Source: an uncultured Gammaproteobacteria bacterium (GTDB lineage: Bacteria > Pseudomonadota > Gammaproteobacteria > Steroidobacterales > Rariloculaceae). Taken from it: DNA of 47,692 nt. The stretch lies in the NCBI GenBank assembly GCA_913041665.1, contig CAJWKT010000003.1, forward strand, positions 1 through 47,692, written 5' to 3'. Below the pieces are notes generated by a model. It searched no databases. It worked only from the letters and a program-made list of their open reading frames with translations, and was not told where the DNA came from. The translations under genes and the position numbers were made by a program. Position 1 is the first letter of the stretch. Each line of letters begins with the position of its first letter. Shown in pieces: positions 1 to 7,362 of this stretch.

Positions 1-2
1 AC

Positions 3-332
3 TGTTTGCCAGCCGGCAACCAAGAGCCAGTATTCCTTGTCCTAGATGTGCAGGTATCAACAGTTTCTGTGTTAGACAACCAACGAGTGGATGCATGGAA
101 TCAAAATAGCATTGGAACCACCGTTGATATCATAAGATGGGTCTCTCGTTTTACCCTTGACTACACTCCCTGGAATTTAGATCGAAAAACTTTAGTTTTG
201 TCCTTTGGGTCTCCGGCCACTGTCCGCATAACTGTAGATCGTGAGTGGCAATGCAATATTATGTCCGAACAAGAATTACGATCGAAGGCTACTCAGTATC
301 AACGATCACTAGTCCAAGGCAATAAAATTTAA
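3..332 (+). CDS. Partial unknown protein, C-terminal part
   Basis: An open frame enters from the left edge and stops with TAA at 330-332, giving about 109 residues of C-terminal sequence. A TTG at base 6 could serve as a start, but the frame is already open at base 3, so a gene cut by the window edge is the simpler reading. I do not recognise the family. The sequence is polar with alternating hydrophobic residues, several Trp and no membrane segment, as in a mainly beta-strand domain, and ends in a charged Gln/Arg/Lys-rich tail. It is followed within 2 bases by an ATG that starts a short copy of the 5' end of the MORN gene at 4121. It may itself be a remnant. Confidence 0.35.
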   Translation, partial: CLPAGNQEPVFLVLDVQVSTVSVLDNQRVDAWNQNSIGTTVDIIRWVSRFTLDYTPWNLDRKTLVLSFGSPATVRITVDREWQCNIMSEQELRSKATQYQRSLVQGNKI

Positions 333-343
333 CAATGAAAGAA

Positions 344-376
344 CACACACTACCTTCTAACTTTCGCCTGTTTGGA
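344..376 (+). repeat. Partial copy of the 5' coding end of the MORN gene at 4121
   Basis: These 33 bases match 4136-4168, the start of the secreted MORN-protein gene, at 29 of 33 positions. An ATG at 335 opens a matching reading frame (MKEHTLPSNFRLFG against [13 protein letters not shown]), but it ends at TAA 392-394 after 19 codons. Only the first part of the signal-peptide region is duplicated; no MORN repeats follow. This looks like a truncated duplicate, not a functional gene. Confidence 0.6.
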
Positions 377-421
377 TTGTTATTTAAGCTATAAATAGCG
401 TGGCGGAAGGAGAGAGATTTT

Positions 422-709
422 ATGGAGTGGTTTTATTGGATTATTGTAATAGGCTTACATGGATTTCTTGGAGAATCGATCCATTATTGGGGATTATTGT
501 CTTGCCTGGGTTAATAGGTATAAGGATAGCTATTGCATTTTTTAGATGGATTGTATGGGGGGGGGAAGAGACACAGAACGATATAAAATTAAAAAGGAAG
601 CTGAATTAAAAGAAATGGCTCTATTTTTTAAATGCGCCTTGGGGGCTATGTTTTTGGGGCCATAATCATACTTATAATTGCATTATTTCCAGAACAATCA
701 TCTCCTTAG
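422..709 (+). pseudogene. Frameshifted small membrane-protein gene
   Basis: Three reading frames in succession each carry one plausible piece of a single small membrane protein. The first starts at ATG 422, after an AAGGAG-like site, and reads MEWFYWIIVIGLHGFLG. The second, open from 400 to 609, carries a hydrophobic stretch (GIIVLPGLIGIRIAIAFF) and a charged loop. A third gives KKEAELKEMALFFKCALG, and a fourth shift restores a final membrane helix (GAIIILIIALFPEQSSP) ending at TAG 707-709. Joined, they would make about 97 residues with three membrane segments. Two of the shifts fall in homopolymer runs, an A run near 593 and a G run near 641, each consistent with loss of one base. It could be true decay or sequence error. 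The family is not recognised. Confidence 0.45.
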
Positions 710-768
710 GAACGGTCAATTACGCGGGAGAGGAAACTGGAACCCTTAAAACGCCTCCAAACCAACCC

Positions 769-903
769 ACCATATATAACTAGTGATCGAACATTTCTAG
801 CCAATTTTGAATGTGAACCAATTACGGTCTATGCTTGGCTAGATCTAAATAAGAGTTTGAATAAAACAAGCCAGCGATAAGCAGACTTGGGAGAGTTTGT
901 GAT
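769..903 (+). repeat. 135-bp block, copy A (upstream of YwqK-like MORN gene)
   Basis: This stretch, beginning ACCATATATAACTAGTGATC, matches 3991-4125 along its whole length with scattered substitutions and small indels near the end. It lies just upstream of the MORN-type gene at 927; the other copy lies just upstream of the secreted MORN gene at 4121 and runs into its start codon. Both copies can be read as a short frame (xPYITSDxTFLA), but the differences between them are mostly amino-acid changing and copy A has a stop, so I do not call a gene. It may be a shared leader or promoter segment or a relic of a common ancestral gene. Confidence 0.75.
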
Positions 904-926
904 TAACTACATATCTGCATTGTGCT

Positions 927-1376
927 ATGACAACACCTCCGACTCAGACGAAGAATAGTCGCCTTTATTATCTAGACACGGATGAAACCGTTACTGGAGT
1001 TGTTGAGACGTTCAATAACGACAGTCAGTTGTGGGAGAAACAAAACTACAAAGACGGGAAAAGAGAGGGTCTTGAAGAGAGGTACTCCGAAAACCTTCAA
1101 GTAGTGACAAAAGTAAACTACAAAGACGGGAAAAGAGAGGGTCTTGAGGAGTGGTTCAACGGAGACGGTCAATTACAGTTCAGACTAAACTACAAAGACG
1201 GGAAAAGAGAGGGTCTTTGGGAGATGTTCTACGAAAATGGTCAATTATCTTTCAGAGGGAACTATAAAGACGGGAAACAAGACGGTCTCTTGGAGTATTT
1301 TGACGAAGACGGAAACTTGACCAGTACAGAGACGTACAGGAACGGAGAACTAATCGAAGAAAACCTAAATTCTTAG
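927..1376 (+). CDS. YwqK-like variant MORN-repeat protein
   Basis: A 149-residue soluble protein without signal peptide or membrane segment. After about 35 residues it consists of 24-residue repeats with the core NYKDGKREGLxE followed by xxGQL, characteristic of the MORN_2/YwqK-like family; databases often label such proteins as YwqK-family antitoxins, a label resting on little direct evidence. Repeat units begin at codons starting at 1044, 1116, 1188 and 1260. The start ATG at 927 is the first in frame; a GTG at 899 within the upstream 135-bp block is in another frame. No clear ribosome site precedes it. The role is unknown; a protein-binding or structural repeat is most likely. No toxin-like partner gene is visible beside it. 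Confidence 0.65.
   Translation: MTTPPTQTKNSRLYYLDTDETVTGVVETFNNDSQLWEKQNYKDGKREGLEERYSENLQVVTKVNYKDGKREGLEEWFNGDGQLQFRLNYKDGKREGLWEMFYENGQLSFRGNYKDGKQDGLLEYFDEDGNLTSTETYRNGELIEENLNS
1044..1331 (+). repeat. Four tandem 72-bp units inside the MORN-type gene
   Basis: Units start at 1044, 1116, 1188 and 1260, exactly 72 bases apart. The first 30 bases (AACTACAAAGACGGGAAAAG and on) are identical in the first three units and changed at several positions in the fourth. Identity at the DNA level, not only in protein, points to recent expansion by unequal crossing over or slippage, or to gene conversion between units. Confidence 0.9.
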
Positions 1377-1549
1377 TAGCCCTACAAACCACCACCACAT
1401 TCCATCTAATTCATAACCTCATTTCCAGCCATCCACAGTCTTGACAAGACCCATTAAAGTAAAAAAATTAATTAGAGAGCAATTAAGACTCGACCCTAAA
1501 ACTATCCTTAACCATCCAAATCAATATCAAACCAGACAAGGAGAAAACC
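1377..1549. other. Intergenic stretch without recognised gene
   Basis: AT-rich sequence between the MORN-type gene and the 3' end of pabBC. I see no tRNA, terminator hairpin or promoter that I would defend. It ends with a good ribosome-site-like AAGGAG at about 1539-1544 preceding the short ORF at 1550. Confidence 0.4.
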
Positions 1550-1624
1550 ATGACAGAGAGAAAAGTAGTACATGATGATTATTGCAGGAGATTCAATATG
1601 GGAAATGTTGGCTTGCAAAGCTGA
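1550..1624 (+). CDS. Possible 24-residue ORF or truncated gene start
   Basis: ATG at 1550 is preceded by AAGGAG with six bases between, an unusually good ribosome site for this region. The frame encodes MTERKVVHDDYCRRFNMGNV plus four residues and stops with TGA at 1622-1624. It overlaps the last 46 bases of pabBC on the other strand. It may be the 5' end of a gene cut off where the pabBC segment joins the island, or chance. No family recognised. Confidence 0.2.
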   Translation: MTERKVVHDDYCRRFNMGNVGLQS

Positions 1625-3372
1625 CCTGAGTATTGGCCACGAACAGAATTAATCAACAGAAATTCCTTGACACTTGAAAGATCATTTAAATGAACCTTTC
1701 CCTCCTTAATTTTACCTCTATCAAGTAACCATTGCCGGTAGGTACCAGCGAGAAGACCACACCCTATCGGTGGTGTAAGCCACTTTCCATGAATTTTCAT
1801 CACAACATTTGCAATACTGGTTTCCGTGACAAAGCCAGAGCTGTTCCAAAGCAGAACATCCTCACAATCCAAAACAGATTGAAGGGCGCGCTCATATACC
1901 CCCCGCCGAGTAGTTTTATGGTACAAAAACGGGTCGTCTATACCAATAGGTTGGTTAGCCAATCTAATTCGATACTGATCTGCCCGGTGGAATTTAGAAA
2001 CAGGTTGATATTCAAACCCCATCCGACCATCCTTGTGCTGGACAAGACGAATCCTATAGTCCGTACTGTCAAAGTTCTGCACCAGTGATTCAAGTTGTCT
2101 CTCAAGATCTTTCTGATTGAATTGAAACGAAAAATATTCTGCTGATTCGCGCAAACGCCGCATGTGATAATCAAACAAAAAAATACCTTCTGCTGGCCTC
2201 CATAGCATGGTTTCAAGCAAACTAAACTCCTCATTCTGTGGCGCAGAATCCAGAATTTTTGCTTTGGTGATGCACTCAGCATATTCCTCTTCGGGTTTGG
2301 AATCCCAAACAACACCGCTACCAACACCATACACTGCCTCACTTGTGTGCTTATTAATAAGTACCGTTCGTATAGCTACATTGAATTGTGCTTGGCGTCC
2401 CGGAGCCAAATACCCAATAGCTCCTGTATATATCTCTCGCGGACTTTCTTCCAACTTATTAATTAGCTCCATACTAGAAACCTTCGGCGCCCCCGTTACT
2501 GATGCGCTGGGAAACAATGCTTGAAAAATATGAGCAATTGATGCCTCAGTCCTAGCTCCAACCGTTGAGGTCATCTGCCAAACTGTTGGGTGACGTTCTA
2601 CTGTGAACAGATTCGACACATCTATAGAGCCTGGTTCAGAAATACGACCAAGATCATTCCTAACCATGTCTGTAATCATTACATTTTCTGCGCGATTTTT
2701 TTTTGAATGGAAAAGCCAATCACCATATTCTTTATCGCCTTCAAAGGTCATACCACGCTTTGCGGTACCCTTCATGGGCTGACAACTCACTTCATGTCCG
2801 TTTAGCTTAAAAAAAGACTCTGGTGATGCCGACACAATCGCATAATCATTTGCATCCACATACGCTGCGTGGGGGGCGCTGGAAGCAATCCTTAGAAATA
2901 ACCCAAGAGCATCATGTACTCCTTCGGCATATTGACGGACCGTGTAATTAATTTGGTAAGTATTGCCAGCAACGATCTGGCTCTTGATTGTCTCCATCTT
3001 ACGAAAATAACGTGACTGGTTTTCGCTCATACGCCATACCGGAGAATTAGGTTGCATGACCGCCTTTGCCCGAGGCAGTGAGGACACTCTTATGGGATCG
3101 AGAAATAATCCAAAGCAAAGTACCGGAAGTTTTTTTTGGGCTTTAGTCAGATAACGACTATCAAAACCCGAGGCAGCCTCATAGGTTAGATATCCTGCGG
3201 CGAATAAACCTTCCCGCTCTACGCGTCTCTCTGTTTCATCGAGAAGCCTTACAACCTCTGACGGATAACGAGTAGATAAAGTTTCCACGCAATTCTTAAA
3301 AACAAGCCATTCCCCCTTAATGGAGTCTCTCAACACAATTTGATTGAGCATGGAGGCGGGTCGTTCAGACAT
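1579..3372 (-). CDS. pabB/pabC fusion: Aminodeoxychorismate synthase I fused to 4-amino-4-deoxychorismate lyase
   Basis: A 597-residue cytoplasmic fusion enzyme for p-aminobenzoate, the folate precursor. Residues about 115-375 are a chorismate-binding domain: QINYTVR (140-146), QPMKGTAKRG (198-207) with Lys201 as the PabB-type nucleophile in place of the Ala of anthranilate synthase, ENVMITDMVRNDLGRI (229-244), SVTGAPKVSSMELI (291-304) and the acidic GSGVVWDSKPEEEYAEC. Residues about 385-597 are a class IV PLP aminotransferase-fold lyase with Lys486 in YHKTTRRGVYE, the LLWNSSGFVTETSIANV segment and LLAGTYRQWLL. The glutamine amidotransferase subunit PabA is not here and must be encoded elsewhere. 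The length fits known PabB-PabC fusions. The start ATG overlaps the end of a small hydrophobic ORF by 8 bases. It sits between two MORN genes, away from other folate genes. Confidence 0.93.
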   Translation of the reverse strand: MSERPASMLNQIVLRDSIKGEWLVFKNCVETLSTRYPSEVVRLLDETERRVEREGLFAAGYLTYEAASGFDSRYLTKAQKKLPVLCFGLFLDPIRVSSLPRAKAVMQPNSPVWRMSENQSRYFRKMETIKSQIVAGNTYQINYTVRQYAEGVHDALGLFLRIASSAPHAAYVDANDYAIVSASPESFFKLNGHEVSCQPMKGTAKRGMTFEGDKEYGDWLFHSKKNRAENVMITDMVRNDLGRISEPGSIDVSNLFTVERHPTVWQMTSTVGARTEASIAHIFQALFPSASVTGAPKVSSMELINKLEESPREIYTGAIGYLAPGRQAQFNVAIRTVLINKHTSEAVYGVGSGVVWDSKPEEEYAECITKAKILDSAPQNEEFSLLETMLWRPAEGIFLFDYHMRRLRESAEYFSFQFNQKDLERQLESLVQNFDSTDYRIRLVQHKDGRMGFEYQPVSKFHRADQYRIRLANQPIGIDDPFLYHKTTRRGVYERALQSVLDCEDVLLWNSSGFVTETSIANVVMKIHGKWLTPPIGCGLLAGTYRQWLLDRGKIKEGKVHLNDLSSVKEFLLINSVRGQYSGQLCKPTFPILNLLQ

Positions 3373-3454
3373 TCTGATAGGGAGAAAAATAAAAGTAAAT
3401 CATCACAAAAAACAACAATACTCCAGCTACCAATAACAACCAAATTTCCTTCAT
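3365..3454 (-). CDS. Small single-pass membrane peptide upstream of pabBC
   Basis: ATG at 3454, preceded by AAAGGA about 11 bases upstream, opens a 29-residue frame that is almost wholly hydrophobic (WLLLVAGVLLFFVMIYFYF in the middle) with Lys-Glu at the front and a polar tail. Its TGA at 3365-3367 lies inside the first codons of pabBC (ATG at 3370-3372), the 8-base overlap expected of translationally coupled genes. It is not recognised. It could be a real small membrane protein, a coupling leader for pabBC, or chance in AT-rich DNA. Confidence 0.4.
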   Translation of the reverse strand: MKEIWLLLVAGVLLFFVMIYFYFSPYQNV

Positions 3455-3622
3455 CAGCAATATCGTCCTTTTAATACCAAAATAGGCATTCTTTCAAGCC
3501 TTTGAAAAACCTAACAAAAATACTGAAAAGTCCTTGCATTTCATGGGCCTGGAGAGTCTATAAGATATTGTTTTAGAAGGAAAAAAAGGACTGTCAGGGA
3601 TATATAGATCTATGGTTCTTTG

Positions 3623-3817
3623 TTAAGTAGATTCACCTATCGTTTTCATCATGCTTTCTTCATATCGTTGGTACTGTTCAAATTTAATTCTAGGATTAGC
3701 GTGTAAGTAGATTTCTGTTGTTGTAATTGAAGCATGACCAGCTAGATCCTTTACACAATGCAAGGACATTCCAGCTTCTAGACTTCTAGTACAGAAATGA
3801 ATAGATACCCCAATAAT
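3623..3817 (-). pseudogene. Tyrosine recombinase (integrase) C-terminal remnant
   Basis: Read on the minus strand, this frame has the canonical end of XerC/D-type phage integrases: FCTRSLEAGMSLHCVKDLAG, then HASITTTEIYLHANP and a short charged tail ending at TAA 3623-3625. The second catalytic His (LAGH) and the nucleophilic Tyr (EIYLH) are present. The preceding HxLRH box and everything upstream are gone: homology breaks at the residue before FCTRS, and a TAG lies in frame at 3818-3820. No start or upstream half was found between here and 4120. It marks a past mobile-element integration. Confidence 0.8.
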
Positions 3818-3882
3818 CTACCAACTAAACCACATAATCCTACAAAAACAATAAACCCTAAAATAAATAGCAAAAATTCCAT
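3778..3882 (-). CDS. Possible 34-residue membrane peptide
   Basis: ATG at 3882 opens a frame coding MEFLLFILGFIVFVGLCGLV and 14 more residues, hydrophobic nearly throughout, ending at TAG 3778-3780. It overlaps the integrase remnant in another frame and starts just where integrase homology is lost, so it may be the start of a different gene joined to the integrase fragment by deletion. No good ribosome site precedes it. Confidence 0.25.
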   Translation of the reverse strand: MEFLLFILGFIVFVGLCGLVGRLLGYLFISVLEV

Positions 3883-3990
3883 TTTATTTTATTGCCCAGA
3901 TGTTGTTAGAACCCTATGAAGAAACAGTATAGATAATTCTGTTTCGACTCAAATTATCTTCACTTTTAGGGCTGCGCAGAAAGTCCCCCT

Positions 3991-4125
3991 ACCATATATA
4001 ACTAGTGATCAAACATTTCTAGCCATTTTTGAATGTGAACCAATTAAGGTCTATGCTCGGGTAGATCTAAAAAAAGAGCTTAAACACAATCAAGCCAGTG
4101 ATAGCAGATTTGGGGAGTTTATGAT
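3991..4125 (+). repeat. 135-bp block, copy B (upstream of secreted MORN gene)
   Basis: Second copy of the block at 769-903. Here it runs directly into the MORN gene: its last bases include the ATG at 4121, and the frame xPYITSDxTFLA is in phase with the MORN coding frame with no stop back to about 3911, although no ATG, GTG or TTG placed like a start was seen. See copy A for interpretation. Confidence 0.75.
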
Positions 4126-4762
4126 GGGAAGAAAACGCACACTACCTTCTAATCTTCGCCTGTTTGGGTGGTGCGTTTTTTTGCTGCTTATCTCAACTCA
4201 GAGCTGGGGCCAGCGAGCTTGCCCCCCGAGCCAAGACTTTACAGAGGGGCTCGGCAGTGACTTTGGGGGAGTGGGTTACAGGTGGACCAACTGCATAGGT
4301 ACCTATACCTTACCCGACGGAAGCAAATACGTTGGTGAATTTCAGTTTGGCCAATTTTTTGGGCACGGCACCTATATTTTTCCCGATGAAAGCAAATATG
4401 TCGGTGAGTTCAGCAGCAACACCTTCAACGGACAAGGCACCTTGATTAAGGCAGATGGATCGATTCTGAAAGGCCTATGGGAAGATGGCGTTTTTCAAAG
4501 ACCTCAAGGTTGCTCTGGAAATTATGACCCAATTACTTGGACGAACTGTGTAGGTGTTATTACTTTAGCAGGCGGAAAAAGATACGAGGGTGAGTTCAGG
4601 GACGGCCAACCGAATGGACAAGGTACCTATAGCATTGCCGATGGTGAAAAATACGTGGGCACATTTAAGGACGGTACCTTCAACGGACAGGGCACCCTGA
4701 CCAGGGCAGGATCGACTCTGAAAGGCTTGTGGGAGAATGGTGAATTTTTAGGTAGCAACTAA
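4121..4762 (+). CDS. Secreted MORN-repeat protein
   Basis: A 213-residue protein with a positively charged start and hydrophobic core (about residues 1-30, ending near SWGQ) that looks like a Sec signal peptide. The rest is MORN-type repeats, seen as YVGEF/GxGT units: [50 protein letters not shown] and [16 protein letters not shown]. The protein is an internal duplication: two halves each begin with W-T-N-C (near 55 and 138) and end with LKGLWE(D/N)G. MORN repeats are structural and bind lipids or proteins; no enzyme domain is present, so a periplasmic or envelope scaffold is the best guess. A second ATG at 4124 is an alternative start. Its stop overlaps the alaS stop by 2 bases on the opposite strand. 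Confidence 0.7.
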
Positions 4763-7362
4763 CTGATGCTATCAGCAACCTGTTTGGCAACTAAGCCTAA
4801 AGCTTCATCCAATTTTTTGGGCTTAGTGCCACCCGCCTGGGCAAAATCCGCCCGTCCACCGCCACTTCCGCCTACATGCTTTGCTATCTTCCCTATCAGC
4901 TGACCGGCTTTGAGTTTGTCCGTCAAATCATCAGTCACCCCGGCTACCAAAAGAACCTTATCCCCATCAACTGCTCCCAGGACAACAACGCCCGAGGATA
5001 GTTTTTCTTTAAGTTGATCTACTGCTTCCCTGAGTCCTTTTGAATCAGCCCCATCGAGTCTTGCCACTACTAATCTTACCCCGCCAACATCCTCCGCCTG
5101 CTCAGCCAGGCCTCCGGTCCTACTCGCGGTAAACTTACCTTTCAAGGACTGCAACTGACGCTCTAAAACACTTTTCTGCTCTCCGAGCTGTTGAACCTTT
5201 TCCGTCAGATCCTCCCGGCCAGCTTTGACAATACCCGCTACACCCTTCAATATATTTTCGTTCTCTTTAACCCAACTGAGCGCACTTTCACCCGTGACCG
5301 CTTCAATTCTCCGGACACCGGACGCGGTACCGCCTTCCGAAACGATCTTGAAAAGGCCAATGTCACCGGTCCGGTTCACATGGGTACCTCCGCAAAGCTC
5401 GGTGGAAAAATCACCCAGCTTGAGCACCCGAACCTCTTCGGCATACTTGTCGCCGAAGAAATGCAGGGCACCTGAATCAATGGCCTCTTGGTAGGGCATC
5501 ACACGAACCTCCGCCTCACTGTTCAGGCGGATCTGCTGGTTCACTAGCCGTTCAATGTTCTCAACCTGTTCCGGGGTTACCGGCTCATGATGGGAGAAAT
5601 CGAACCGTGTTCGATCGGGCGCGACCAGGGACCCCTTCTGCTGTACATGCTGGCCCAGCACTGCGCGTAGGGCCGCGTGCAGCAGATGGGTCGCCGAGTG
5701 GTTCAGAACAACCGAGGCCCGTAGGTTTTCGTCCACCTCGGCGGTCACCGCGTCCCCAACCTTGATGCGTCCCTCACTGACTGTGCCAATGTGGCCGTAG
5801 GCCGAGCCTAGCTTTTGCGTGTCAGCTACGCCGAACAGCTTACCCTTGGCCCATAGCACGCCAGCATCGCCTACTTGACCCCCGCCCTCTGGGTAAAAAG
5901 GCGTGGCATCCAAGACCACAATGCCGTCCGAGCCTGACTTCAGAAGGTCCACCGGCTTGCCACCGGAAAAAAGTGCCTCCACGCGGGCGGCAGAGGACAA
6001 AGTCTCGTAGCCCGTAAAGATAGTAGATGTTTTCAAGCTTGGCAGATCCGGACTCCCCGCTGCAAAACGGCTTCCCTTTCGAGCCCGCTTACGTTGTGCT
6101 TCCATTTCTACTTCGAATCCCTTCTCGTCCACTGTGAGCCCTCTTTCCCGGGCAATGTCAGCTGTCAGGTCCTGCGGAAATCCAAATGTATCGTATAACT
6201 TGAAGACCATCTCGCCCGGTATGATTTTTTCAGGCCCGAGCTCTTGGATGGCATTTTCCAGAATCCCCATCCCTTGGTGCAGAGTCTCGGCAAAGCGCTG
6301 TTCCTCCTGTCGCAGCGCCCTCTCCACTTCCTCGCATCTTTCCGTCAGCTCAGGATAGGCCGGACCCATCTGAACTTCCAGTGGCCTAACAAGCTTATAA
6401 AAAAAAGGTTCTCTAGCTCCCAGCTTATAGCCGTGGCGAATCGCGCGGCGGATGATTCGGCGCAGTACATAGTTACGGTTTTCATTACCCGGCAACACCC
6501 CGTCCGCAATTAAAAAGGAGCAAGCACGAATGTGATCGGCAATGACGCGCAACGATTTATCTGAGATGTCTTCGGTACCGGTAACCTCAGCCGCTTCTTC
6601 GATGAGCCGTTTGAAAATATCAATCTCATAGTTAGAGCTTGCCCCTTGCATCACGGCGGCCAGACGCTCCAGTCCCATCCCGGTATCCACCGAGGGTTTG
6701 GGTAGTGCAGTTAACTTTCCACTTGAATCCCGGTCGAACTGCATGAACACCAGATTCCAAATCTCCACGTACCGGTCGCCGCTCTCATCCGCAGACCCCG
6801 GCGGTCCACCTCCAACTTCTGGGCCATGATCATAGAAAATTTCGCTACACGGCCCACAAGGTCCTATGTCACCCATCGCCCAAAAATTACTCTTCTTTCC
6901 CATCTGAGAGAACCGGCTCGAGTCGATACCGACTCCCTTTAACCAAATCTCCGCTGCATCATCATCTTCCTCAAACACGGTAACCCAGAGCCGTTCGGGA
7001 GGTAGATTCAAAACATCGGTGATGAACTCCCAAGCGTAATGAATTGCTTCATCTTTAAAGTAATCGCCGAAACTAAAATTTCCCAACATCTCAAAAAAAG
7101 TGTGGTGGCGCCCCGTATAGCCCACATTTTCTAGATCATTGTGCTTACCACCAGCTCGCAGGCATCTCTGGGAACTTACCGCCCGAGGTATGGCGCGTTT
7201 CTCCCGGCCGAGAAAAACGTCCTTAAACTGGACCATTCCGGCATTGGTAAAAAGCAGGGTCTGATCATTCGCCGGGATAAGCGGACATCCTGGAACAATC
7301 TCATGCCCCTTCTTTGCAAAATAATCCAGGAAGGCCTGGCGTAGATCATTTACGGTACTCAT
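4759..7362 (-). CDS. alaS: Alanine--tRNA ligase
   Basis: Charges tRNA-Ala in the cytoplasm and edits mischarged Ser/Gly-tRNA. At 867 residues it is of normal bacterial length. The class II catalytic core opens the protein (motif 1 region near [15 protein letters not shown]; motif 2 in [18 protein letters not shown], 85-102; [10 protein letters not shown] at 228-237 for motif 3). The editing domain has zinc ligands HSATH (His555, His559) and CGGTH (Cys657, His661). The C-terminal C-Ala domain ends with the Gly-rich [15 protein letters not shown]. It lies 12 bases after recX, completing the recA-recX-alaS order known from Escherichia and Pseudomonas. The reading frame is intact. Confidence 0.97.

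Follow-up and report, generated by a model that had tools for sequence, protein, structure and literature searches.

A 3' remnant of a tyrosine recombinase gene at a synteny break downstream of alaS in an uncultured gammaproteobacterium

The last 59 codons of a tyrosine recombinase gene, lying near the left end of a contig from an uncultured gammaproteobacterium of the family Rariloculaceae, are very probably a dead 3' scrap of a foreign gene, left by deletion or rearrangement at a synteny breakpoint after alaS, with the MORN genes beside it being independent of it. The contig, referred to here as the window, was analysed at its full length of 47,692 nucleotides and is one whole contig (C3) of the 173 that make up a 2.25 Mb assembly, which is 86% complete. 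The features discussed are collected in Table 1. The name alaS and similar gene names are presumptive, being taken from a reading of the translations; the pabBC, MORN and MORN_2 names in the window are based on Pfam.

Table 1. Features in the left part of the window, in window coordinates.
Feature	Position	Strand	Remarks
Isolated copy (34 bp) of the leader-cassette signal-sequence start	342..375	+	
Second copy of the leader repeat	766..903	+	87% identical
MORN_2 gene (PF07661)	927..1376	+	Pfam
pabBC-like fusion gene (chorismate-binding and class IV aminotransferase)	1579..3372	-	Pfam
5' part of a small membrane-protein-like ORF (MKEIWLLLVAGVLLFF...)	3349..3454	-	Broken; joined to the first pabBC codons
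Complete stop-to-stop frame of the integrase remnant	3623..3817	-	Stop codon 3625-3623
Final 59 codons (3' remnant) of a tyrosine recombinase gene	3626..3802	-	His and Tyr motifs kept; HxxR box and upstream part gone
Dispersed leader repeat and signal-sequence-like start (by eye)	3988..4172	+	Begins before the MORN gene at 4121 and reaches into it
MORN-repeat gene (PF02493)	4121..4762	+	Convergent with alaS; 4-bp overlap with the alaS end
alaS (name from the translation)	4759..7362	-	Matched in all but one of the 21 other family genomes; window without csrA and tRNA-Ser

The recombinase remnant

The minus-strand frame 3817-3626 includes IHFCTRSLEAGMSLHCVKDLAGHASITTTEIYLHANPRIKFEQYQRYEESMMKTIGEST, and its 59-residue recombinase-like stretch matches the phage integrase family PF00589 with E = 1.4e-6 and 28.6 bits (cut-off 27.1), over profile positions 136-170 of 172. 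Its 48-residue ATG-initiated ORF taken alone stays below the cut-off, at 18.7 bits. In a six-frame PF00589 search of the whole genome the remnant falls slightly under the cut-off of 27.1 (25.1 bits, E = 1.8e-5). A model of 30 integrases gives the remnant 49.8 bits and the second-best frame of the window 3.3 bits; the best frame among 50 first-order-resampled windows searched with filters off reached 10.0 bits, and with default filters zero matches were reported on 100 such windows. The members of this model were mostly chosen as matches to the fragment, and the Pfam score is therefore the independent figure.

The best PHROGs match is the integrase family phrog_1 (E = 2.9e-8), the NCBIfam models for XerA and XerC are matched with E = 8.8e-8 and E = 3.4e-7, respectively, and the best solved relative is XerA (5hxy, E = 1.5e-4). 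The NCBIfam equivalog cut-offs (29.9 bits against 335.15 for XerC, 24.3 against 329.6 for XerD) and that for the integron integrase (TIGR02249, 23.4 against 265 bits) are unreachable for a fragment, and the shortfall hence means only that the remnant is no intact member.

What the remnant shares with the tyrosine recombinases and phage integrases (PF00589; phrog_1, phrog_216) is the C-terminal histidine of GHAS and the tyrosine of TTEIYLH, within which lies EIYLH; the C-terminal PF00589 motif with its His/Trp and nucleophilic Tyr is thus present. The functional meaning of the His, Tyr and HxxR motifs is that generally understood for the family. Compared with that family, the remnant consists of the last 59 residues only; its core-binding domain has been lost, as has the remainder of the catalytic core with the HxxR box. 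The loss of the box follows from the integrase-model alignment, which begins with FCTRSLEAG, at position 280 of 339, where the intact integrases of the same genome have LRHAFATHLL or similar. Window frames upstream of the remnant contain nothing similar to the first Arg, the Lys or the HxxR box of the catalytic domain, and the search for the N-terminal core-binding domain gave no further window frame above 3.3 bits with the integrase model. The initial annotation, which described a recombinase end with the catalytic His and Tyr but without the HxLRH box and the upstream half, is borne out on this point. The 59 codons are stop-free and the frame is open throughout, which gives no sign of decay past the truncation. 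Judged by its sequence, the remnant is what is left of the 3' end of a tyrosine recombinase gene, standing in isolation, a true but ordinary finding.

Search for a parent or relatives

A parent was sought in the same genome, where 11 places (the remnant included) match PF00589, 9 of them above the cut-off. Two genomic integrases found with the fragment itself were rejected as parents, as one shares only 39% identity with it over 46 residues and the other 44% over 34 residues. Separate full-length genes, which we take to be XerC/D-like from a reading of their translations, are located on contigs C2 and C18. Further integrase genes or fragments are found on eight short contigs of 3.7-10.7 kb (C145, C105, C115, C117, C116, C148, C129 and C77), several of them at contig edges; mobile elements as such are therefore present in this genome. 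Separately, contig C1 (L040) has an exact 68-base direct repeat (1-68 and 3281-3348), the second copy of which continues, by eye, into what looks like the 3' end of a tRNA, and may be an attachment site or an assembly overlap.

Among 58 genomes (this one and 57 relatives, 21 of them from the same family), 56 match the fragment at E <= 0.001, the best-scoring outside matches being 37-53% identical. In a sample of 369 genomes of the class, this one included and with no second genome of the same genus represented, four genomes had a match at E <= 1e-6; identity in the three others was 46-52%. Short matches were found at nine loci in the genome_contigs collection (47-74% identity over 19-41 residues) and at three loci in viral contigs (67-74% over 21-23 residues); at E <= 1e-5 two phage records matched, with about 46% identity, and the plasmid collection gave no match. 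Accordingly, neither a parent or close full-length relative of the remnant nor an intact related element was detected in its own genome, the 57 relatives, the 368 other sampled class genomes or the public collections of phages, plasmids, viral contigs and genome contigs.

At the DNA level, a search of the 21 other family genomes with positions 3400-4180 (E <= 0.001) returned nothing over 3626-3802; the matches obtained were to a piece upstream of pabBC, in relative G012, and to the leader repeat, in G008 and G021. The fragment is thus not conserved in place among these relatives, which leaves standing the initial reading of past integration and decay. The titles and abstract openings listed in literature searches contained nothing on this locus, an extent of text on which no claim of absence from print is based.

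The synteny break downstream of alaS

The stretch downstream of alaS was read in 18 of the 20 relatives with a match, G001 and G010 being left out. It includes csrA in all but one of the 18 (G005) and a complete tRNA-Ser(GCT) in 16; the exceptions are G018, where the contig ends inside the tRNA, and G008, where the stretch ends at a contig end. Both csrA and tRNA-Ser(GCT) are missing from the window. No CsrA match was detected in the own genome, in which a csrA-to-tRNA query found only the TGA and GGA tRNA-Ser genes. The window has no tRNA, positions 1-5200 contain no tRNA-Ser tail, and an Rfam search of positions 1-5000 gave no match at E <= 5; an RNA search of nine sources at gathering score found two tRNAs, both outside the window. 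Given the incomplete assembly, displacement of csrA and tRNA-Ser(GCT) is as likely as their loss, and the gaps may hold both.

The base composition also changes at this locus, with a GC content of 33-36% in pieces of 3373-4120 and 33-44% over 1-4120, against 49.8% in 4763-47692. A second broken gene lies nearby: the DNA of the small membrane-protein-like ORF shares 80% identity with the beginning of an ORF that is open for 57 codons in G012 (L114 3735-3908), and, read in another frame, it provides the first eight codons of pabBC. Residues 1-8 of pabBC remain unaligned with the genes of relatives, matches to which start at residues 9, 9, 13 and 18. These pabBC matches come from four relatives, one of them covering the chorismate-binding half only.

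The surroundings of the remnant are thus AT-rich debris, at a point where the gene order that follows alaS in relatives is broken; past rearrangement and decay are supported. In the proposed history, a foreign tyrosine recombinase gene, encoding a phage- or element-type integrase, would once have been present. One or more deletions or rearrangements would have cut it just 3' of the HxxR codons, leaving the tail next to unrelated AT-rich DNA, and csrA and tRNA-Ser(GCT) would have been displaced or lost from the breakpoint downstream of alaS; the second broken gene, joined to the start of pabBC, lies at this locus too. Any product of the remnant would have neither of the catalytic arginines and no core-binding domain, and would be unable to recombine DNA. 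That an integrated element once stood at this place, when it would have arrived, and that the scrap lacks a function are inferred; the source of the recombinase may also have been of a different kind. The earlier proposal of past integration and decay of a mobile element holds in part: a 3' recombinase end lies in a rearranged, AT-rich stretch, and most of a mobile-type gene has been lost. The comparison with related genomes revealed no intact element and a locus that differs in synteny from that of most relatives.

MORN genes and the leader repeat

The remnant had also been proposed to explain the unusual gene content of 1-4760, and this is not supported, as the family of MORN genes and leaders also occurs elsewhere in the same genome and in relatives without this integrase. 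A scan with the integrase model of 16 stretches (132,473 bases), of which 14 contain a MORN gene or leader and two are merely neighboring, gave a single match, the full-length XerC-like gene on C18. Further MORN_2 loci obtained with a protein query gave no match to this model; among the stretches scanned, three contain 4.5 to 5.6% masked bases. As the scanned MORN and leader loci are without this integrase, the MORN gene beside alaS can be accounted for in the absence of one, and the MORN genes beside the remnant have most likely spread independently of it. The use of the remnant is therefore corrective: it marks the synteny break after alaS and is not to serve as an explanation for the MORN genes.

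The leader repeat has eight matches in this genome, of which three lie in the window and the others on C1, C17, C25 and C93; outside the window, the cassette is seen at L040 3524-3703 (on C1), L041 6070-6218, L101 1352-1132 and L112 1410-1268. The copy at C1:3524-3703 is 84% identical to the window copy, with identity ending within the signal-like start; past that point the window gene is a MORN gene, and the C1 gene resembles the MORN_2 gene of the window. In G012, a leader copy precedes a decayed, MORN_2-like stretch that lies between csrA and tRNA-Ser and, like its counterpart in the window, converges on alaS. In G021 the same start heads a different gene, lipoprotein-like by eye. The coding starts of these two genomes, which belong to the same genus, are identical at 74 of 74 bases, compared with 74% identity in the alaS region and 83.5% in csrA.

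A copy is also found in another genus. Window positions 826-1209, comprising the leader tail and MORN_2 gene, are 93% identical to G008:C79:1-387 (L143, L148), whereas the alaS pieces that can be aligned between the window and G008 are 67-70% identical. This similarity may reflect a recent transfer or contamination of one assembly. There are nine mismatches in 282 coding bases, four synonymous and five not, and there is therefore no sign of strong constraint on the MORN_2 copy. A protein query with the C1 gene found MORN_2 relatives in four of 22 genomes, the own genome included, and the family is thus patchy. The MORN genes are thus members of a family that has a leader and signal-sequence repeat of its own, present elsewhere in the same genome and in another genus.

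It may tentatively be suggested that the integrase scrap is incidental and that a small mobile 5' cassette, able to be copied from gene to gene and from one genus to another, has this locus as one of its landing places. Such a cassette would consist of about 130 bp of untranslated leader and the first 17-25 signal-sequence codons, and would lend signals for expression and secretion to gene bodies that are themselves unrelated (MORN, MORN_2 and another lipoprotein-like gene), amounting to bacterial exon shuffling at gene starts. A structured or riboswitch-like RNA in the leader was considered and rejected, since four copies fold like their shuffles (z = 0.78, -1.03, -0.44 and 0.10). More curious than the remnant itself is the shuffled leader cassette nearby, and the MORN genes have an apparent dispersal history of their own; the shared cassette and the 93% identical copy in another genus merit separate study.

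Alternative origins

Truncated integrases are common, and those left beside genomic islands form a known class. The remnant resembles them as an orphan tail in a rearranged, AT-rich stretch, and differs from them in that 1-7000 shows no attachment-like repeats and the window lacks a tRNA. It is nevertheless conceivable, along the lines of the initial reading, that the whole of 1-4760 came in as an integrative element or genomic island, at the csrA/tRNA-Ser(GCT) site downstream of alaS or close to it, and has since decayed, the tRNA-Ser being the likely attachment site and the scrap a leftover of the integrase. The absence after alaS of the csrA and tRNA-Ser that most relatives read possess would fit such an event, as would the low GC content of 1-4120 and the cross-genus identity of the MORN_2 gene, which exceeds that of alaS and suggests horizontal movement. 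However, this origin appears unlikely. The window has no tRNA, 1-5200 has no tRNA-Ser tail, and no attachment-like duplication is apparent: the long direct repeats in 1-7000 are the MORN and leader repeats, besides which only one 14-base pair is apparent, the contig ending at position 1. The scanned MORN and leader stretches elsewhere are also without an integrase except for the one XerC-like gene, and the decayed MORN_2 stretch of G012, with the same leader in the same orientation, has no integrase match in 1.9 kb. In addition, pabBC is a biosynthetic gene with counterparts in four relatives.

An assembly chimera, with debris and repeats from contig ends wrongly attached to the alaS contig, is considerably less probable. 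The window is a whole contig of a fragmented assembly with the odd region at its left end, the GC content steps at alaS, and the MORN matches of G008 on C34, C42, C79 and C92 are each no more than about 160 bases away from the end of the contig, so that such repeats do break assemblies; however, the MORN gene overlaps the end of alaS, and the leader family is present on five contigs of the same genome. It is hardly credible that the 48-64 residue frame encodes a working small protein, such as a DNA-binding or dominant-negative recombinase tail, for although the frame is open and has an internal ATG, the family genomes have no DNA match to it, the PF00589 match starts late in the domain, and the ATG specifies a methionine within the integrase-like stretch and not at its start.
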